64,000 nt of DNA. Origin: Pseudomonas oryzihabitans. Lineage in GTDB: Bacteria; Pseudomonadota; Gammaproteobacteria; Pseudomonadales; Pseudomonadaceae. The position numbers and the translations under genes are program-made. The stretch spans positions 4,802,001-4,866,000 of the forward strand of contig NZ_CP021645.1 of assembly GCF_006384975.1 (NCBI RefSeq), given 5' to 3'. Positions 30,862 to 37,109 of this stretch are shown here, in pieces; positions within the stretch are counted from its first letter, which is position 1; every line of letters begins with the position of its first letter. The notes beneath the pieces were generated by a model. It was given only the letters and a program-made list of their open reading frames with translations. It did no database searches and was not told where the DNA came from.

Positions 30862-31344
30862 GTGGTCTCTCAATCGATAGAAGCTGGGTCTGCTTATCGA
30901 GTTTCGGTGCGGTGCGGCACCATGGCACATGGGTGGATGTGCAGTGGGCAAGGCAGAATGCAGCCGGAAACACGCAAGGGCAGGTTCTTGTCCCTCCGCC
31001 GCCCTTCTCTCGTGAACCACCGGAAGGGTCGGACCAAAAACGCAAGGCGCGCTCAGGCGGCGGCTGACCGCAGACCAAGGTCTCGGGAGCGGCTGCATGC
31101 GCGTGCGTTTTTGTTGCCGGGCATTTTAATGAGAAGGGGTAGGGATTCCTAGCCCGTAATTCATTGGCTTTGGCTATTAGCCTTTAGTCTAATCCTGCGT
31201 CGCCCTGCCTGAGCAGCGACTTTGAGCGCGGAAACACGAGGCGACAGCGGATACCAGCCACCAGACGAAACCTGGTGTTCTGCCGCTGGAAGGTCGTGCG
31301 GCGGCAAGCCGATCGCCTTGCGGCGATCGACTGCAGGGGGCCTT
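30862..31344 (-). other. Region between mqo and desulfurase genes
   Basis: 483 bp with no convincing gene. It should hold the mqo promoter and 5' leader (read leftward); TAAAAT on the minus strand near 31125 is a possible -10 but no good -35 was found. Just after the desulfurase stop, an 8-bp stem CGATCGCC / GGCGATCG (31310-31317 / 31322-31329) may end the encapsulin operon; no T-run follows. Confidence 0.4.
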
Positions 31345-33348
31345 TTAGCTGCTGCGCCTCTGGCTGGCCAGGGTTTTCACCACCGCCACCAGGCGATCTA
31401 TTTCGTCGTAGGTGTTATAGAAAGCTAATGAAGGCCGCACCGTGGCCTCCACACCGAAGCGACGCAGAATGGGCTGGGCACAGTGGTGGCCGGTGCGCAC
31501 GGCAATGCCTTCTTCATTGAGGGCCTGGCCTACTTCCTCGGTAGAGAAACCGGCCAGCACAAAGGACATCACGCTGGTCTTCTCCGCCGCCGTGCCGATC
31601 AGGCGGACGCCGGGAATGCTCGCCAGTTGGTGCATGCCGTACTCCAGTAGGTCGTGCTCGTAGCGGGCGATGTTCTCCAGACCCAGGCGGTTGACATAGT
31701 CGAGCGCCGCGCCCAGGCCGACCGCATCGGCGATGTTGCCAGTGCCTGCTTCGAACTTGTTGGGTATGGGCTGGAACACCGTCTTCTCGAAGGTGACATC
31801 GGCGATCATGTTGCCACCGCCCTGCCAGGGCGGCATGTCTTCCAACACCGCGCGTTTCCCCCAGAGCACGCCGATCCCGGTCGGACCGAAGATCTTGTGG
31901 CCGGAGAAGACGAAGAAGTCGGCATCCAGCGCCTGCACGTCGACGCGCAAATGGGACACCGACTGGGCACCATCCACCAGCGCTTTGGCGCCCGCGCGGT
32001 GCGCCAGTTCGATGATTTCCTTGACCGGCACTACAGTGCCCAGCGCATTGGAGACCTGGGTGACCGCGACGATTCGCGTGCGGTCGTTCAGCAGTTTGCG
32101 ATATTCGTCGAGCAGCACCTGGCCGGAGTCGTCTACGGGGATGACGCGCAGCCGAGCGCCCTTGGCCGCGGCTAGTTGCTGCCAGGGCACGATATTGGCG
32201 TGGTGCTCCAGGTGGGAGACGACGATCTCGTCGCCTTCGCCAACGTGTTGGGCGCCCCAGCTCTTGGCGACCAGATTGATCGCTTCGGTGGTGCCCCGCA
32301 CGAAGATGACCTCATGCACCTCGGGCGCGTTGATGAAGGCCCGCACCCTTTCCCGCGCGCCTTCGTAGGCATCCGTGGCCCGTGCGGCCAACTCGTGGGC
32401 GGCACGATGGATGTTGGAGTTCTCGTGGGCGTAGAAATGGGCGAGCCGGTCGATGACCGCTTGCGGCTTGTGGGTGGTCGCGGCGTTATCGAACCAGACC
32501 AGCGGGCGGCCATTCACCCGCTCCTGCAGGATGGGGAAGTCCCGGCGAATGGCGTGGACATCGAAGGGCGGATGACGATCGGCGACCACCGCCGGGGAAG
32601 GGGCGCGTGGGGCAGACTGGCTGGCCGTCGCTGCGCCAGTGGCCTGCGGCCCGTGCTCGGTGAAATAGTAGTGGGTCGCGGGTACCGCCGTGGACTGCCG
32701 TTCGCGCTGGCCAGGTAGGTCGAGCTCTATCGCGGAACCTTCCGAGAAGGGCTGCCGTGCCAGTCGATCCAGCAGGCTGTCTGGCGCCGATGTCGGAGCG
32801 GACGCGGTCGGTTGCTGCCAATAGAAGCTCGGTACGTCTGGCTGCGGCGCCCCCGTGTGTGGCGTGGTCACTGGCACGGGCGATACGCCCTGCAGCTGAC
32901 TACCCAGGCGGGGCTCGTAGGCGGGCAGGGTGCTGAAGGGCGTATCCGGTACGCCGTTGCCCGCCTGGGCGTGGGGTAGCAAGGCCGGGGCACGATGCGC
33001 CAGGCTGGGCAAGGGGGCCGGTGACGCCGGCAGCAGGTTACTGCCCGGCACAGTGCCCTGGGGAATAGGCGTACCCGGTACCCCGGGCCCCAGGCCTGCC
33101 GGGCTCGCCAGGGGAGAACCCGGTGGCGCGACGTTCACTGGCGCCTGGACGCCCGGCGGCGCAACGGGGCTGGTAGTGGGCAGCGTAGCGGGGGGTGTGC
33201 CAGGCGCCTGTTGCCGGGCGAAGCCGCTTGGCCCGACCACTTCGGTGGGCAAGGCGGCGAACAGGGCATTGGCCATGCGCGCCAATAGCGCCGGGTCGAT
33301 CGGCGCTTCAGGCTGCTGTGGCAAGGGGAGCGAAGGGGAGGTCGGCAT
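31345..33348 (-). CDS. Encapsulin cargo cysteine desulfurase (family 2A)
   Basis: 667-residue PLP enzyme, about 260 residues longer than free SufS. It converts cysteine to alanine and enzyme-bound persulfide. Residues 1-~260 are Pro/Ala/Gly-rich and largely disordered, with short conserved-looking islands (LLARMANALFAALP at 21-34, VPSFYWQQP at 172-180, THYYFTEHG at 225-233): this matches the encapsulation-targeting domain of family 2A cargo. The catalytic domain (264-667) starts FDVHAIRRDFPIL; PLP lysine is Lys485 in SGHK and the active-site Cys is Cys623 in TGHHCAQP. It lies 18 bp after the encapsulin gene. Its sulfur product can be stored inside the shell. Confidence 0.94.
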   Translation of the reverse strand: MPTSPSLPLPQQPEAPIDPALLARMANALFAALPTEVVGPSGFARQQAPGTPPATLPTTSPVAPPGVQAPVNVAPPGSPLASPAGLGPGVPGTPIPQGTVPGSNLLPASPAPLPSLAHRAPALLPHAQAGNGVPDTPFSTLPAYEPRLGSQLQGVSPVPVTTPHTGAPQPDVPSFYWQQPTASAPTSAPDSLLDRLARQPFSEGSAIELDLPGQRERQSTAVPATHYYFTEHGPQATGAATASQSAPRAPSPAVVADRHPPFDVHAIRRDFPILQERVNGRPLVWFDNAATTHKPQAVIDRLAHFYAHENSNIHRAAHELAARATDAYEGARERVRAFINAPEVHEVIFVRGTTEAINLVAKSWGAQHVGEGDEIVVSHLEHHANIVPWQQLAAAKGARLRVIPVDDSGQVLLDEYRKLLNDRTRIVAVTQVSNALGTVVPVKEIIELAHRAGAKALVDGAQSVSHLRVDVQALDADFFVFSGHKIFGPTGIGVLWGKRAVLEDMPPWQGGGNMIADVTFEKTVFQPIPNKFEAGTGNIADAVGLGAALDYVNRLGLENIARYEHDLLEYGMHQLASIPGVRLIGTAAEKTSVMSFVLAGFSTEEVGQALNEEGIAVRTGHHCAQPILRRFGVEATVRPSLAFYNTYDEIDRLVAVVKTLASQRRSS

Positions 33349-33366
33349 GCTCGTGGAGCCTCCGGC

Positions 33367-34299
33367 TTAGCGGTAGGTGTCGGGATAGTCGTGGTACTTG
33401 CCGATCTCGACATCGTCGAGCACCGCGAGGGCATCCTCGGTCAGCACAGCCAGCGAGCAGTAGAGAGAGATCAGATAGGACGAAATCGCATGGTTGTTGA
33501 TGCCCATGAAGCGTACCGACAGCCCCGGACTCTGCTCGCCGGCCAGGCCCGGCTGATAGAGGCCCACGACGCCCTGGCGTTTATCACCGACCCTCAGCAG
33601 CAGGATCTTGCTCTTGCCGTCCGCCACCGGGACCTTGTCCGACGGGATGAGGGGAATCCCCCGCCAGGTGATGAATTGCGAACCGAACAAGCTGATGGTG
33701 GGCGGTGGCGTGCCGCGGCGGGTCGCCTCGCGGCCAAAGGCGGCGATCGCCAGCGGATGGGCCAGGAAGAAAGCCGGTTCTTTCCAGACCTTGGTCAGCA
33801 GTTCATCGAGATCGTCGGGGGTGGGCGCGCCGGTGAGAGGGAAGATTCGCTGTTCTTCGGTGACCTGGGAGAGCAGGCCGTAATCGGGATTGTTGATCAG
33901 CTCGCTTTCCTGGTTTTCCTTGATGGTCTCGATGGTCAGGCGCAGCTGTTCTTTGATCTGGTCGTGTGGACTGCTGTAGAGGTCGGAAATGCGCGTGTGG
34001 ACATCCAGTACGGTGCTCACGGCATTGAGGAAGTACTCGCGCGGCTGCTCTTCGTAATCGACGAAGGTACGCGGCAACTGATTCTCTTCTTCGCGCGCGG
34101 TGCAGGTCACGCGAATGGATTCTGGATTCTTGACCTTGTTGAGCCGATAGATGCCCGCTTCGACCGGAACCCACTGCAGCAGGTGGGTCAGCCAGCGTGG
34201 ACTTATCGTCGAAAGTTGCGGAACGGTCTTGGTCGCATTGGCCAATTGGCGAGCGGCATTATCGCCGAGAGCGGTAGTGCCCCCTACGGTTGCGGTCAT
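33367..34299 (-). CDS. srpI: Family 2A encapsulin shell protein (SrpI-like)
   Basis: 310-residue HK97-fold nanocompartment shell protein; family 2A length, with no cyclic-nucleotide domain (which would indicate 2B). Recognisable features are an extended N-terminal arm rich in Thr/Ala, then WLTHLLQWVPVEAGIYRLNKVK, VDYEEQPREYFLNAVSTVLDVH, and the C-terminal YLISLYCSLAVLTEDALAVLDDVEIGKYHDYPDTYR region. Sixty copies are expected to form a T=1 shell around the desulfurase. SrpI of Synechococcus is induced by sulfate starvation. Here an A/T-rich 190-bp gap upstream could hold a promoter for shell and cargo. Confidence 0.95.
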   Translation of the reverse strand: MTATVGGTTALGDNAARQLANATKTVPQLSTISPRWLTHLLQWVPVEAGIYRLNKVKNPESIRVTCTAREEENQLPRTFVDYEEQPREYFLNAVSTVLDVHTRISDLYSSPHDQIKEQLRLTIETIKENQESELINNPDYGLLSQVTEEQRIFPLTGAPTPDDLDELLTKVWKEPAFFLAHPLAIAAFGREATRRGTPPPTISLFGSQFITWRGIPLIPSDKVPVADGKSKILLLRVGDKRQGVVGLYQPGLAGEQSPGLSVRFMGINNHAISSYLISLYCSLAVLTEDALAVLDDVEIGKYHDYPDTYR

Positions 34300-34490
34300 G
34301 GCAAAGTCCTCAGTTATATGATGTTGGCGTGTTGGTTCGATTGTGGAAAAGCAAAACTCAGACTGACGCGGACTAATGACATTCTTATTAGCTAAGATGT
34401 CACAGGTTCTTCATGCTGAAAAGTTGTCGAAGGAATAACGCTATATCGCTTTGGTAAAGCTTTTAGTTGTGGGTTGAGTGATATGTGAGG
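34300..34490 (-). promoter_or_regulatory. Candidate promoter/operator before encapsulin gene
   Basis: A 191-bp A/T-rich gap in a G/C-rich genome, between the serine acetyltransferase and encapsulin genes. It holds the dyad CTAAT-N9-ATTAG (34373-34391), about 75 bp before the encapsulin ATG, of a size and symmetry consistent with a LysR-type site. A sulfur regulator such as CysB is a natural candidate but this is inference. No clear -35/-10 was identified. Confidence 0.4.
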
Positions 34491-35387
34491 TCAGCTGTTT
34501 TTTGAGTCGGCTTGGGAGACAAGGGTCCCGGCAGGTACATCCTGGGTAATCCAGACATTGCCACCAATCACGGCCCCAGCGCCCAAGGTAACGCGACCGA
34601 GAATGGTGGCACCGGCGTAGATGACCACGTCGTTTTCGACCTTGGGATGGCGTGGCAGACCCTTCTGCAAGTGGCCCAGCTCATCGGTGGGAAAACGCTT
34701 GGCCCCCAGGGTCACGGCTTGGTAGATACGCACGCGCTCGCCAATTTCGGCGGTTTCGCCGATGACTACGCCGGTGCCATGGTCGATGAAGCAACCCGCG
34801 CCGATGCGTGCGCCGGGATGGATGTCGATTCCGGTCTGGCTGTGGGCGATCTCAGCGAGAATGCGGGCGAGCAGCGGTAGTTCCAGATGATAGAGCCTGT
34901 GTGCCAGTCGATGATGGATCATCGCCAGTACTCCGGGATAACACAGCAATACCTCATCGACACTACGGGCTGCCGGATCGCCCTGATAGGCAGCGATGAC
35001 GTCACTGTCCAGCAGGCGTCGAATGTGGGGAAGCGAGGCCGCGAAGGCTCTGATGGCTGTTTCCGCCCGTTCGGCAGGATCTTGTGGCGAAATGGCATGT
35101 TCCCGGTAGGAACTACGGATTTCCAACTCCGCCTGATCGACCAGGGTTTGCAACGCAGAATCCAGTGTATGGCCTACGTAGAAATCTTCGCTTTCATAAA
35201 AGAGGCCCGGAGGACCCAGGCGCATGGGAAAGAGTACGCCCTTTAATTGCTCCACTACTTGGCTGAGTGCTTCTCGGGAAGGAAACTCCCGACTGCGTAT
35301 TTCTCGCGATCTATTTTGCGCGTCCCGCCATTCCTCACGGGTATCACGCAACTCTTTGACGATTTCAGCGACTGCGAAAACGGCCAC
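34491..35387 (-). CDS. Serine O-acetyltransferase, EpsC/SrpH type
   Basis: 298-residue cytoplasmic enzyme making O-acetylserine, the cysteine precursor, from serine and acetyl-CoA. The N-terminal helical domain (~50-180) precedes a left-handed beta-helix of hexapeptide repeats (~185-290). Catalytic His190 lies in DIHPGARIG and His203 in DHGTGVVIGE. This is the EpsC-type CysE with longer N-terminus, the same kind as SrpH found beside SrpI in Synechococcus. Position upstream of encapsulin and desulfurase indicates a dedicated cysteine supply for the compartment. Confidence 0.92.
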   Translation of the reverse strand: MAVFAVAEIVKELRDTREEWRDAQNRSREIRSREFPSREALSQVVEQLKGVLFPMRLGPPGLFYESEDFYVGHTLDSALQTLVDQAELEIRSSYREHAISPQDPAERAETAIRAFAASLPHIRRLLDSDVIAAYQGDPAARSVDEVLLCYPGVLAMIHHRLAHRLYHLELPLLARILAEIAHSQTGIDIHPGARIGAGCFIDHGTGVVIGETAEIGERVRIYQAVTLGAKRFPTDELGHLQKGLPRHPKVENDVVIYAGATILGRVTLGAGAVIGGNVWITQDVPAGTLVSQADSKNS

Positions 35388-35522
35388 GGTAGGTCCCTCT
35401 GGGTCCGATGTTTCGGTCTGAGCTCAATTGGGGAGATGGGCGAAATTGGCGCTATCGATCGACGTCGGCCAGCCACGCCGGCGCGCCGGCTGCGACCACC
35501 CGGCGGCCGCTGCGTGCAGCGC

Positions 35523-36002
35523 CTATTGCTGGGTCCAGGGCAGGCCGTGGAAGCGCCAGCCATCATCGTGGCCGCGTTGCTGATTGGGATCGAGCTCGCC
35601 CTCGAAACCTTCGAGGATGTTGAAGACGTGGCTGAAGCCGGCCTTGGTCGCCGCTTCCGCCGCTGCCGCCGAACGTTTGCCACTGCGGCAGAGCAACAGC
35701 AGCACGGCGTCCTTGCCGCCCCAGGGCGCTACCTTGGCCTCGAGTTCGCGAACGAAGCGCGGATTGCGGGTCAGGTTGGTACCCGTTGCCCAGGTCACGT
35801 GCAGACTGCCGGGGACCTGCCCGACGAAGGTGCGCTCCTCAGGTGAACGCACGTCCACCAATACCGCTTCACCCGCTTCGAACAGCTTCCACGCCTGAAT
35901 CGGCGTAACGCTGCCAGCAAAGGAGAGATCCTGTGCCAGGGCCCTGGCCTGGGCCCGTTCGAGGATTTCCGGAAGCGCGGTTTCTAGAACTGCCAATGCC
36001 AT
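35523..36002 (-). CDS. Rhodanese-domain sulfurtransferase
   Basis: 159 residues, a single rhodanese domain with a ~30-residue helical N-terminus. The active-site loop is CRSGKR with catalytic Cys105; the upstream CH2-like motif is VLVDVRSPEER. It transfers sulfane sulfur between persulfides and acceptors. GGAG precedes the ATG. It is first in the set rhodanese, serine acetyltransferase, encapsulin, desulfurase; 135 bp separate it from the second gene. Rhodaneses recur next to family 2A encapsulins, so a role in sulfur loading or release is likely but inferred. Confidence 0.9.
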   Translation of the reverse strand: MALAVLETALPEILERAQARALAQDLSFAGSVTPIQAWKLFEAGEAVLVDVRSPEERTFVGQVPGSLHVTWATGTNLTRNPRFVRELEAKVAPWGGKDAVLLLLCRSGKRSAAAAEAATKAGFSHVFNILEGFEGELDPNQQRGHDDGWRFHGLPWTQQ

Positions 36003-36182
36003 GGTGAGGCTCCTGGTCGATGAAGGTTTTCAGGAGACCAATCTAGGAGCAAAACCCCTTGCTATAGAAATAATAAAAATGGAAAAAATAAGATCTAGAA
36101 GTTATAAGTCCGCCGCGACAGAGGCTCTGGGAAGGGTATTTCAGCCGAACGAGGCTAGCTTGCCCCTTGGGCGACAAGCGGC
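36003..36182 (-). promoter_or_regulatory. A/T-rich promoter region of encapsulin locus
   Basis: 180 bp upstream of the rhodanese gene, with a strongly A/T-rich core at 36055-36110, unlike the flanks. On the minus strand TATAGC near 36065 could be a -10. The core contains TTCTAGATCTTATT-like overlapping dyads that might bind a regulator. No gene is seen here. Confidence 0.4.
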
Positions 36183-37109
36183 CTAGGCGAAGCGCCAGGC
36201 GAGGAAGCGGCTCTGCTTCTGGCCTTGGGCCATGGCTACCACCCGCGTTTCGCTGGCCTGTTCACGCCGCAGCGCCGCCTGCAGCACGGGCAGGTTGCTG
36301 GCCTTGGAGACCAGGCAGGTGAACCAGCCGACCTGAGGCGCAAAGCGGCGACTCTCACCAATCATCCGCTCGATGAAGGCCGCTTCACCGCCCGGACACC
36401 AGAGTTCGGCCGCCTGGCCGCCGAAATTGAGCAGGGGCACCTGCTTGCCGGTGGTCTTGCCCAGATTCTTCCATTTGCGCTGGCTGCCACGCACGGCGTC
36501 GGTGGGGCTGGCATGGAAGGGCGGATTGCACAGGGTGGCGGCGTAATGCTCACCGGGCTGCAGGATGCCGGCGAAGATCGCCTGGGGATCGGGTTGGCGG
36601 CGCAATTCGATGGCCGCGGCGCAATCCGGGTTGGCGGCGAGGGTGCGGCCAAAGGCCTCCAGCGCCGCTGGGGCGATATCGCTGCCGACGAAGTGCCAGC
36701 CGTATTCCTTGAAGCCGATCAGCGGATAGACGCCATTGGCGCCGGTGCCCACGTCCAGTAGGCGAACCCCTTCACCACGCGGCAGCTTGCCGCCATTGCC
36801 CTCGGCCAGCAGGTCGGCCAGGTGATGCAGATAGTCGGCCCGGCCCGGAATCGGTGGGCAGAGGAAGTCGGCGGGGATATCCCAGTTGCGCACGCCATGG
36901 TGCAAGGCCAGCAGCGCTCGATTGAGGGCGCGGACCGCCTGGGGATCGGTGAAGTCGATGGACAGGTTGCCCCGTGGCGTCGGTGCCACGAAGGGTTTGA
37001 GCGCGGGGCTGACACGCATCAGGGCCGGAAAGTCGTAGCTGCCCTGGTGGCGATTGCGCGGATGCAGGGGAGCGGGGCGGCCAGGGAGAGGGCGACGGGG
37101 CGAGGTCAT
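36183..37109 (-). CDS. rlmF: 23S rRNA (adenine-N6)-methyltransferase RlmF
   Basis: 308-residue SAM-dependent enzyme that methylates A1618 of 23S rRNA. The SAM-binding motif is [14 protein letters not shown] and the N6-adenine catalytic motif is CNPPFHAS. N-terminal [15 protein letters not shown] and ALNRALL are family features. The start at 37109 ([10 protein letters not shown]) is preferred; a longer start at 37169 is possible. It precedes the encapsulin locus on the same strand but is functionally unrelated. Confidence 0.93.

Follow-up and report, generated by a model that had tools for sequence, protein, structure and literature searches.

Pseudomonas oryzihabitans carries a cysteine-desulfurase encapsulin operon of family 2A which is complete and, according to the comparison of related sequences, was probably gained horizontally as one block of at most about 5.0 kb; the donor would be distant and betaproteobacterial, a member or neighbour of the Burkholderiales. 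Four intact minus-strand genes fill positions 31345-36002 of the window, i.e. of the whole stretch of 64,000 nucleotides that was analysed; they encode a rhodanese, an EpsC-type serine acetyltransferase, a family 2A encapsulin shell and a cysteine desulfurase (Table 1). The block is located between rlmF and mqo. Judged by its sequence, the locus is a real and complete representative of a well-known operon type, which is described and widespread; with the system itself being known, the novelty is confined to how this copy was acquired. A literature search confined to family terms found no published account of this copy or of its transfer. The likely gain by transfer rests above all on the empty sites of related genomes and on a gap in sequence identity.

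Table 1. Features of the encapsulin locus; positions refer to the window.
Feature	Positions	Strand	Evidence
Rhodanese, 159 aa, Cys105 in CRSGKRS	35523..36002	-	PF00581, 51.7 bits (cut-off 22.2); nearest solved chain 8w14_A, 191 bits
EpsC-type serine O-acetyltransferase, 298 aa, GTG start	34491..35387	-	NF041874, 165.3 bits (cut-off 150); nearest solved chain 3f1x_A
Family 2A encapsulin shell (SrpI-like), 310 aa	33367..34299	-	PF19307, 341.5 bits; NF041162, 531 bits; nearest solved chain 8t6r_A
Cargo cysteine desulfurase, 667 aa	31345..33348	-	NF041166, 940.7 bits (cut-off 800); nearest solved chain 8kg1_A
AT-rich leader (49% G+C) 5' of the rhodanese gene, a probable promoter region where the inserted block begins	36003..36182	-	Composition
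Gap of 191 bp (41% G+C) where a small HTH gene sits in most related loci	34300..34490	-	Composition, locus comparison
Stretch of 4,988 bp without homology to nine empty-site relatives (reference L124)	31195..36182	.	Comparison with relatives

Gene content and protein families

The original prediction, made from the sequence of the stretch, described a complete set of four sulfur genes on one strand, and this description holds: the reading frames are intact, lie where it had placed them and follow each other in the claimed order, with the desulfurase gene 18 bp from the shell gene. The residues it named for the active sites are found as well, i.e. Cys105 of the rhodanese (LLLLCRSGKRS), His190 and His203 of the acetyltransferase (GIDIHPG...IDHGTGV), and Lys485 (SGHKIFGP) and Cys623 (RTGHHCAQP) of the desulfurase; alignments to solved proteins place them within conserved blocks. 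One correction concerns the acetyltransferase. Both histidines are there, but the catalytic pair is probably a different one: in CysE of Escherichia coli the pair is Asp143/His158, 15 residues apart, and by analogy that of the window protein should be Asp188/His203. This protein scores below the cut-off of the cysE model TIGR01172 (174.6 bits; cut-off 210.65), and above that of the EpsC model NF041874.

Shell and cargo belong to the families to which they had been assigned, both scoring above the cut-offs of the curated models NF041162 and NF041166. For the shell, the family 2A model NF041162 (cut-off 380) is matched over positions 1-295 of 295 with an E-value of 5.7e-160, and PF19307 (cut-off 22.8) is the sole Pfam domain in the 310 residues. 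A family 2B shell was considered and rejected. The 2B model also passes its cut-off (417 bits; cut-off 400), but this match is confined to model positions 216-449, the shell part, and the Pfam search found no cNMP domain in the shell; a cNMP-binding domain separates family 2B from family 2A. The original prediction had been made dependent on a shell within family 2A, and this is where the protein is placed, with the higher and full-length score for the 2A model (531 versus 417 bits). In the nearest solved structure, PDB 8t6r, the shell (‘Major membrane protein I’) likewise consists of 310 residues, and residues 9-310 of the window shell align with it (564 bits); we take this structure to be the sulfur-storage shell of Acinetobacter baumannii.

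A phage capsid, in turn, finds no support: a family 2A query, for which SrpI from Synechococcus elongatus was used instead of the window shell, matched only 2 of 50,697 phage records. Both deposits of ‘Acinetobacter phage MD-2021a’ (CAKLQH020000001.1 and CAKLQF020000001.1; 329 and 379 kb) encode a shell of family 2A together with a desulfurase, and possibly represent bacterial DNA deposited under a phage name.

The desulfurase is matched by NF041166 over residues 12-660 (E-value 5.6e-283) and consists of a Pro/Ala-rich N-terminus (about residues 1-255) and a SufS-like domain (about residues 262-660); residues 1-262 comprise 21% Pro and 15% Ala. Published loading motifs of the N-terminus are LARLANEFFS and AASPYYFLDG (PMC8049743, in excerpt). 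The window protein contains LLARMANALF, which is located near the N-terminus and resembles the first of them, and PATHYYFTEHG. The search patterns derived for the two motifs were too strict; they matched 44 (first motif) and 57 (second motif) of 91 desulfurases and missed both motifs in S. elongatus, and thus carry little weight.

Proposed function and published relatives

The four proteins may act together. The acetyltransferase would supply O-acetylserine and thereby favour cysteine synthesis, while the desulfurase would be kept within the shell through its long N-terminus; cysteine that gets into the shell would be converted to alanine, the freed sulfur would accumulate there as a store, and the rhodanese would hand it on at need. 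For this bacterium, the assembly of shells, the loading of cargo, the storage of sulfur, a regulation by the sulfur supply and the part played by the rhodanese are inferred by analogy with published systems.

As far as the available excerpt of PMC8049743 goes, the homologous desulfurase of S. elongatus is loaded via its N-terminus and is about sevenfold more active when encapsulated, the system is induced under sulfate starvation, and there is no growth defect, whether replete or sulfur-starved, presumably in the knock-out; the last point counts against our preferred reading. The window shell is 73% identical to SrpI, which is encoded on plasmid pANL together with the desulfurase CyD, and the desulfurase domain is 75% identical. 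As in the window, epsC and a rhodanese gene adjoin the shell and desulfurase genes on pANL; unlike the window, the pANL cluster includes a cysteine synthase gene and has the rhodanese gene at the opposite end. One of the best 80 related loci, and only one, likewise carries a cysteine synthase gene (L070:1098-2060; 79% identical to that of pANL), located between the rhodanese and acetyltransferase genes. A survey, of which parts were available, counts 1281 family 2A operons with desulfurases; the accessory genes most enriched in such operons are those of serine acetyltransferases and rhodaneses (PMC8346489).

The same operon could alternatively serve channelling or redox protection rather than storage, with a shell that speeds up and isolates the desulfurase and releases sulfur only to the matching rhodanese. 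We regard this as unlikely, but as the most serious of the other readings. The available part of the same survey proposes channelling for family 2A operons, with a shell that admits only the matching rhodanese to take the sulfur (PMC8346489); the rhodanese gene is found in 78 of the best 80 of at least 591 loci, with the other two cut at a contig end, and the about sevenfold gain of activity in S. elongatus (PMC8049743, in excerpt) points in the same direction. Later papers, however, term these encapsulins sulfur stores in the parts at hand (PMC12407261, PMC10960027), and one of them cites work whose title reports stored elemental sulfur (PMC10960027). A sulfur store remains our preferred reading of the operon's task.

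The cassette supplements sulfur genes that the host already has, because further desulfurases and acetyltransferases are encoded in the host genome. The former are one more similar desulfurase (44% identical over residues 244-656) with three weaker relatives. Of the latter, a second EpsC-like acetyltransferase is 64% identical to that of the cassette, two others show 42% identity, and one further match is weak. Beside the gene of the second EpsC-like acetyltransferase (L155:7546-8490) lie sulfurtransferase-, AhpC- and AhpF-like genes, as recognized by eye from the first 70 residues of each. The host genome also includes, besides three full copies of the 16S rRNA gene, a partial match at G000:C1:4736848-4737484 (model positions 9-641, in two pieces).

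Related loci and the missing HTH gene

The gene order of the window recurs in nearly all of the best 80 of at least 591 confirmed relatives from a genome scan, a selection which is not a fair sample. These 80 loci comprise 78 rhodanese, 78 acetyltransferase, 74 HTH, 80 shell and 78 desulfurase genes. Cuts at contig ends explain the missing rhodanese in L032 and L035, the missing desulfurase in L014 and L054, and the missing acetyltransferase in L035; L062 is genuinely without an acetyltransferase. The Burkholderiales operons (such as those of Duganella, Herbaspirillum and Variovorax; L002-L081) share the order of the window and possess shells 88-96% identical to its own, but 74 of the 80 loci have a small gene between acetyltransferase and shell, encoding an HTH_3 domain, which the window lacks. 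A remnant of this gene in the gap of the window was rejected (best E-value 0.28; stops in all three frames). Searched with one Variovorax protein as single query, by which diverged copies may be missed, L008, L045, L066, L068, L070, L071, the 11 host-family stretches and the window gave no HTH match. Both Achromobacter loci are among the six loci of the best 80 without a match, and one of them, Achromobacter deleyi LMG 3458 (L066), is the sister of the window in the tree of all four proteins. The absence of the gene from the window and from its sister fits a shared history; yet the gene is missing in more than one lineage. Its presence in most donor-side loci and absence from some suggest a regulator that the operon can do without.

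Plasmid records match part of the stretch in 143 out of 72,556 cases, and none of them covers more than 80%; for the copy on a Variovorax plasmid, the annotation shows all four genes and an HTH gene.

Base composition sets parts of the block apart from its surroundings, in keeping with a gain by transfer. At third codon positions, G+C amounts to 61% in the acetyltransferase gene, 74% in the rhodanese gene, 77% in the shell gene and 80% in the desulfurase gene, compared with 80.5-87.0% in five neighbouring genes. The twelve 200-bp stretches with the lowest G+C of the whole window fall at 34201-34580 and 35941-36180, i.e. at the two leaders of the cassette.

It is improbable, in our judgement, that the block was gained but lies silent and unused after arriving without its regulator. 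The window indeed lacks the HTH gene that most donor-side loci have, and a scan of 31100-36300 for a sigma-70-type consensus found none, with a mean of 1.0 in shuffled sequences; such a scan is, however, weak evidence, an HTH match is equally absent from six of the best 80 loci and from all 11 family stretches, and the four frames are open with their active-site blocks conserved.

Empty site and origin of the copy

The shell is present in one out of 13 genomes of the host genus, namely the host's own, and in none of the 12 others. Nine of these 12 relatives have rlmF and mqo side by side, and their empty site consists of a spacer of 144-270 bp versus about 5.0 kb in the window; for G002, G004 and G005, the best rlmF and mqo matches are on separate contigs and hence uninformative on the site. 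The homology of the window to the nine relatives ends at 31193-31207 and returns at 36182-36185. Next to mqo, the window and the relatives have, by eye, a block in common that is similar to ACGACC...GGTTTCGTC; over the nine relatives, between 1 and 119 of 200 shuffled sequences did as well in local alignment, so that a retention of the ancestral spacer on this side is no more than suggested. No integrase, transposase or junction repeat that would mark the mode of entry was found at the locus. Repeats of at least 7 bases are absent between the 80-bp zones 36123-36202 and 31301-31380, the latter of which misses the mqo-side break if this is nearer to 31195.

Set beside its empty-site sister species, the host offers a natural comparison, with and without the operon, of what a sulfur store would be worth. 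As the mechanism has already been described, the locus adds little in that respect; its value is that of a test bed for growth under changing sulfur supply, given the mapped empty site of close relatives.

The second line of evidence is the identity gap. Among the matches listed, shells of Herbaspirillum and Duganella reach up to 96% identity with that of the window, and the shells of 10 of the 11 host-family stretches 81-84%; in the remaining stretch, L138, an overlap rule hides the shell. The 11 stretches represent 10 genomes, out of the 13 in the family that, apart from the host's own, possess a shell. Over the whole host family, the shell exceeds the cut-off in 14 of 398 sampled genomes, the host's own included. 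One further match is weak and broken (L096 in G225; positions 52-149, 19.8 bits, two internal stops), and looks like a decayed shell gene.

All trees were computed by a quick method. In the shell tree (97 rows), 14 family shells constitute one side of a branch (support 100), and the window is placed outside of it, among the Burkholderiales; the Paraburkholderia shells are located outside the window's group of 72 rows (support 95). The rhodanese tree puts the window on the family side with a support of 28. For single genes, a clade of the window and its own family is not rejected, because the tests, based on 42 hand-chosen loci of the best 80 of the scan, yield p-values of 0.43 (shell), 0.46 (desulfurase) and 0.13 (acetyltransferase). 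With all four proteins, the same clade obtains a p-value of 0.027, and the tree places the window among the Burkholderiales with Achromobacter deleyi as its sister (support 95); this set of 52 rows consists of 40 of the same 42 hand-chosen loci, 10 family stretches, the window and L144. The A. deleyi shell is 94% identical to that of the window. Its locus is nevertheless not the direct donor, because rhodanese (72%), acetyltransferase (68%) and desulfurase (72%) are less similar.

An operon ancestral to the genus and lost in the relatives, as the scattered family shells (14 of 398 genomes) and the permissive single-gene tests might allow, is very improbable in view of the 12 other genus genomes without a shell, the short spacer that nine of them have in common at the site, the lower identity to family shells (81-84%) than to those of Oxalobacteraceae (up to 96% among the matches listed) and the four-protein test.

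Horizontal gain of the whole block remains the favoured history of this copy. More generally, we lean towards the view that family 2A sulfur encapsulins pass from one proteobacterial class to another as a compact cassette of four genes, in which the small HTH regulator is dispensable, and which would provide single species of a genus with a ready-made sulfur store. Within the host family, one genome (G064) contains a duplicated stretch of 3,172 bp with shell and desulfurase (L133 and L134; 99.3% identity), and the L133 copy is without rhodanese and acetyltransferase.
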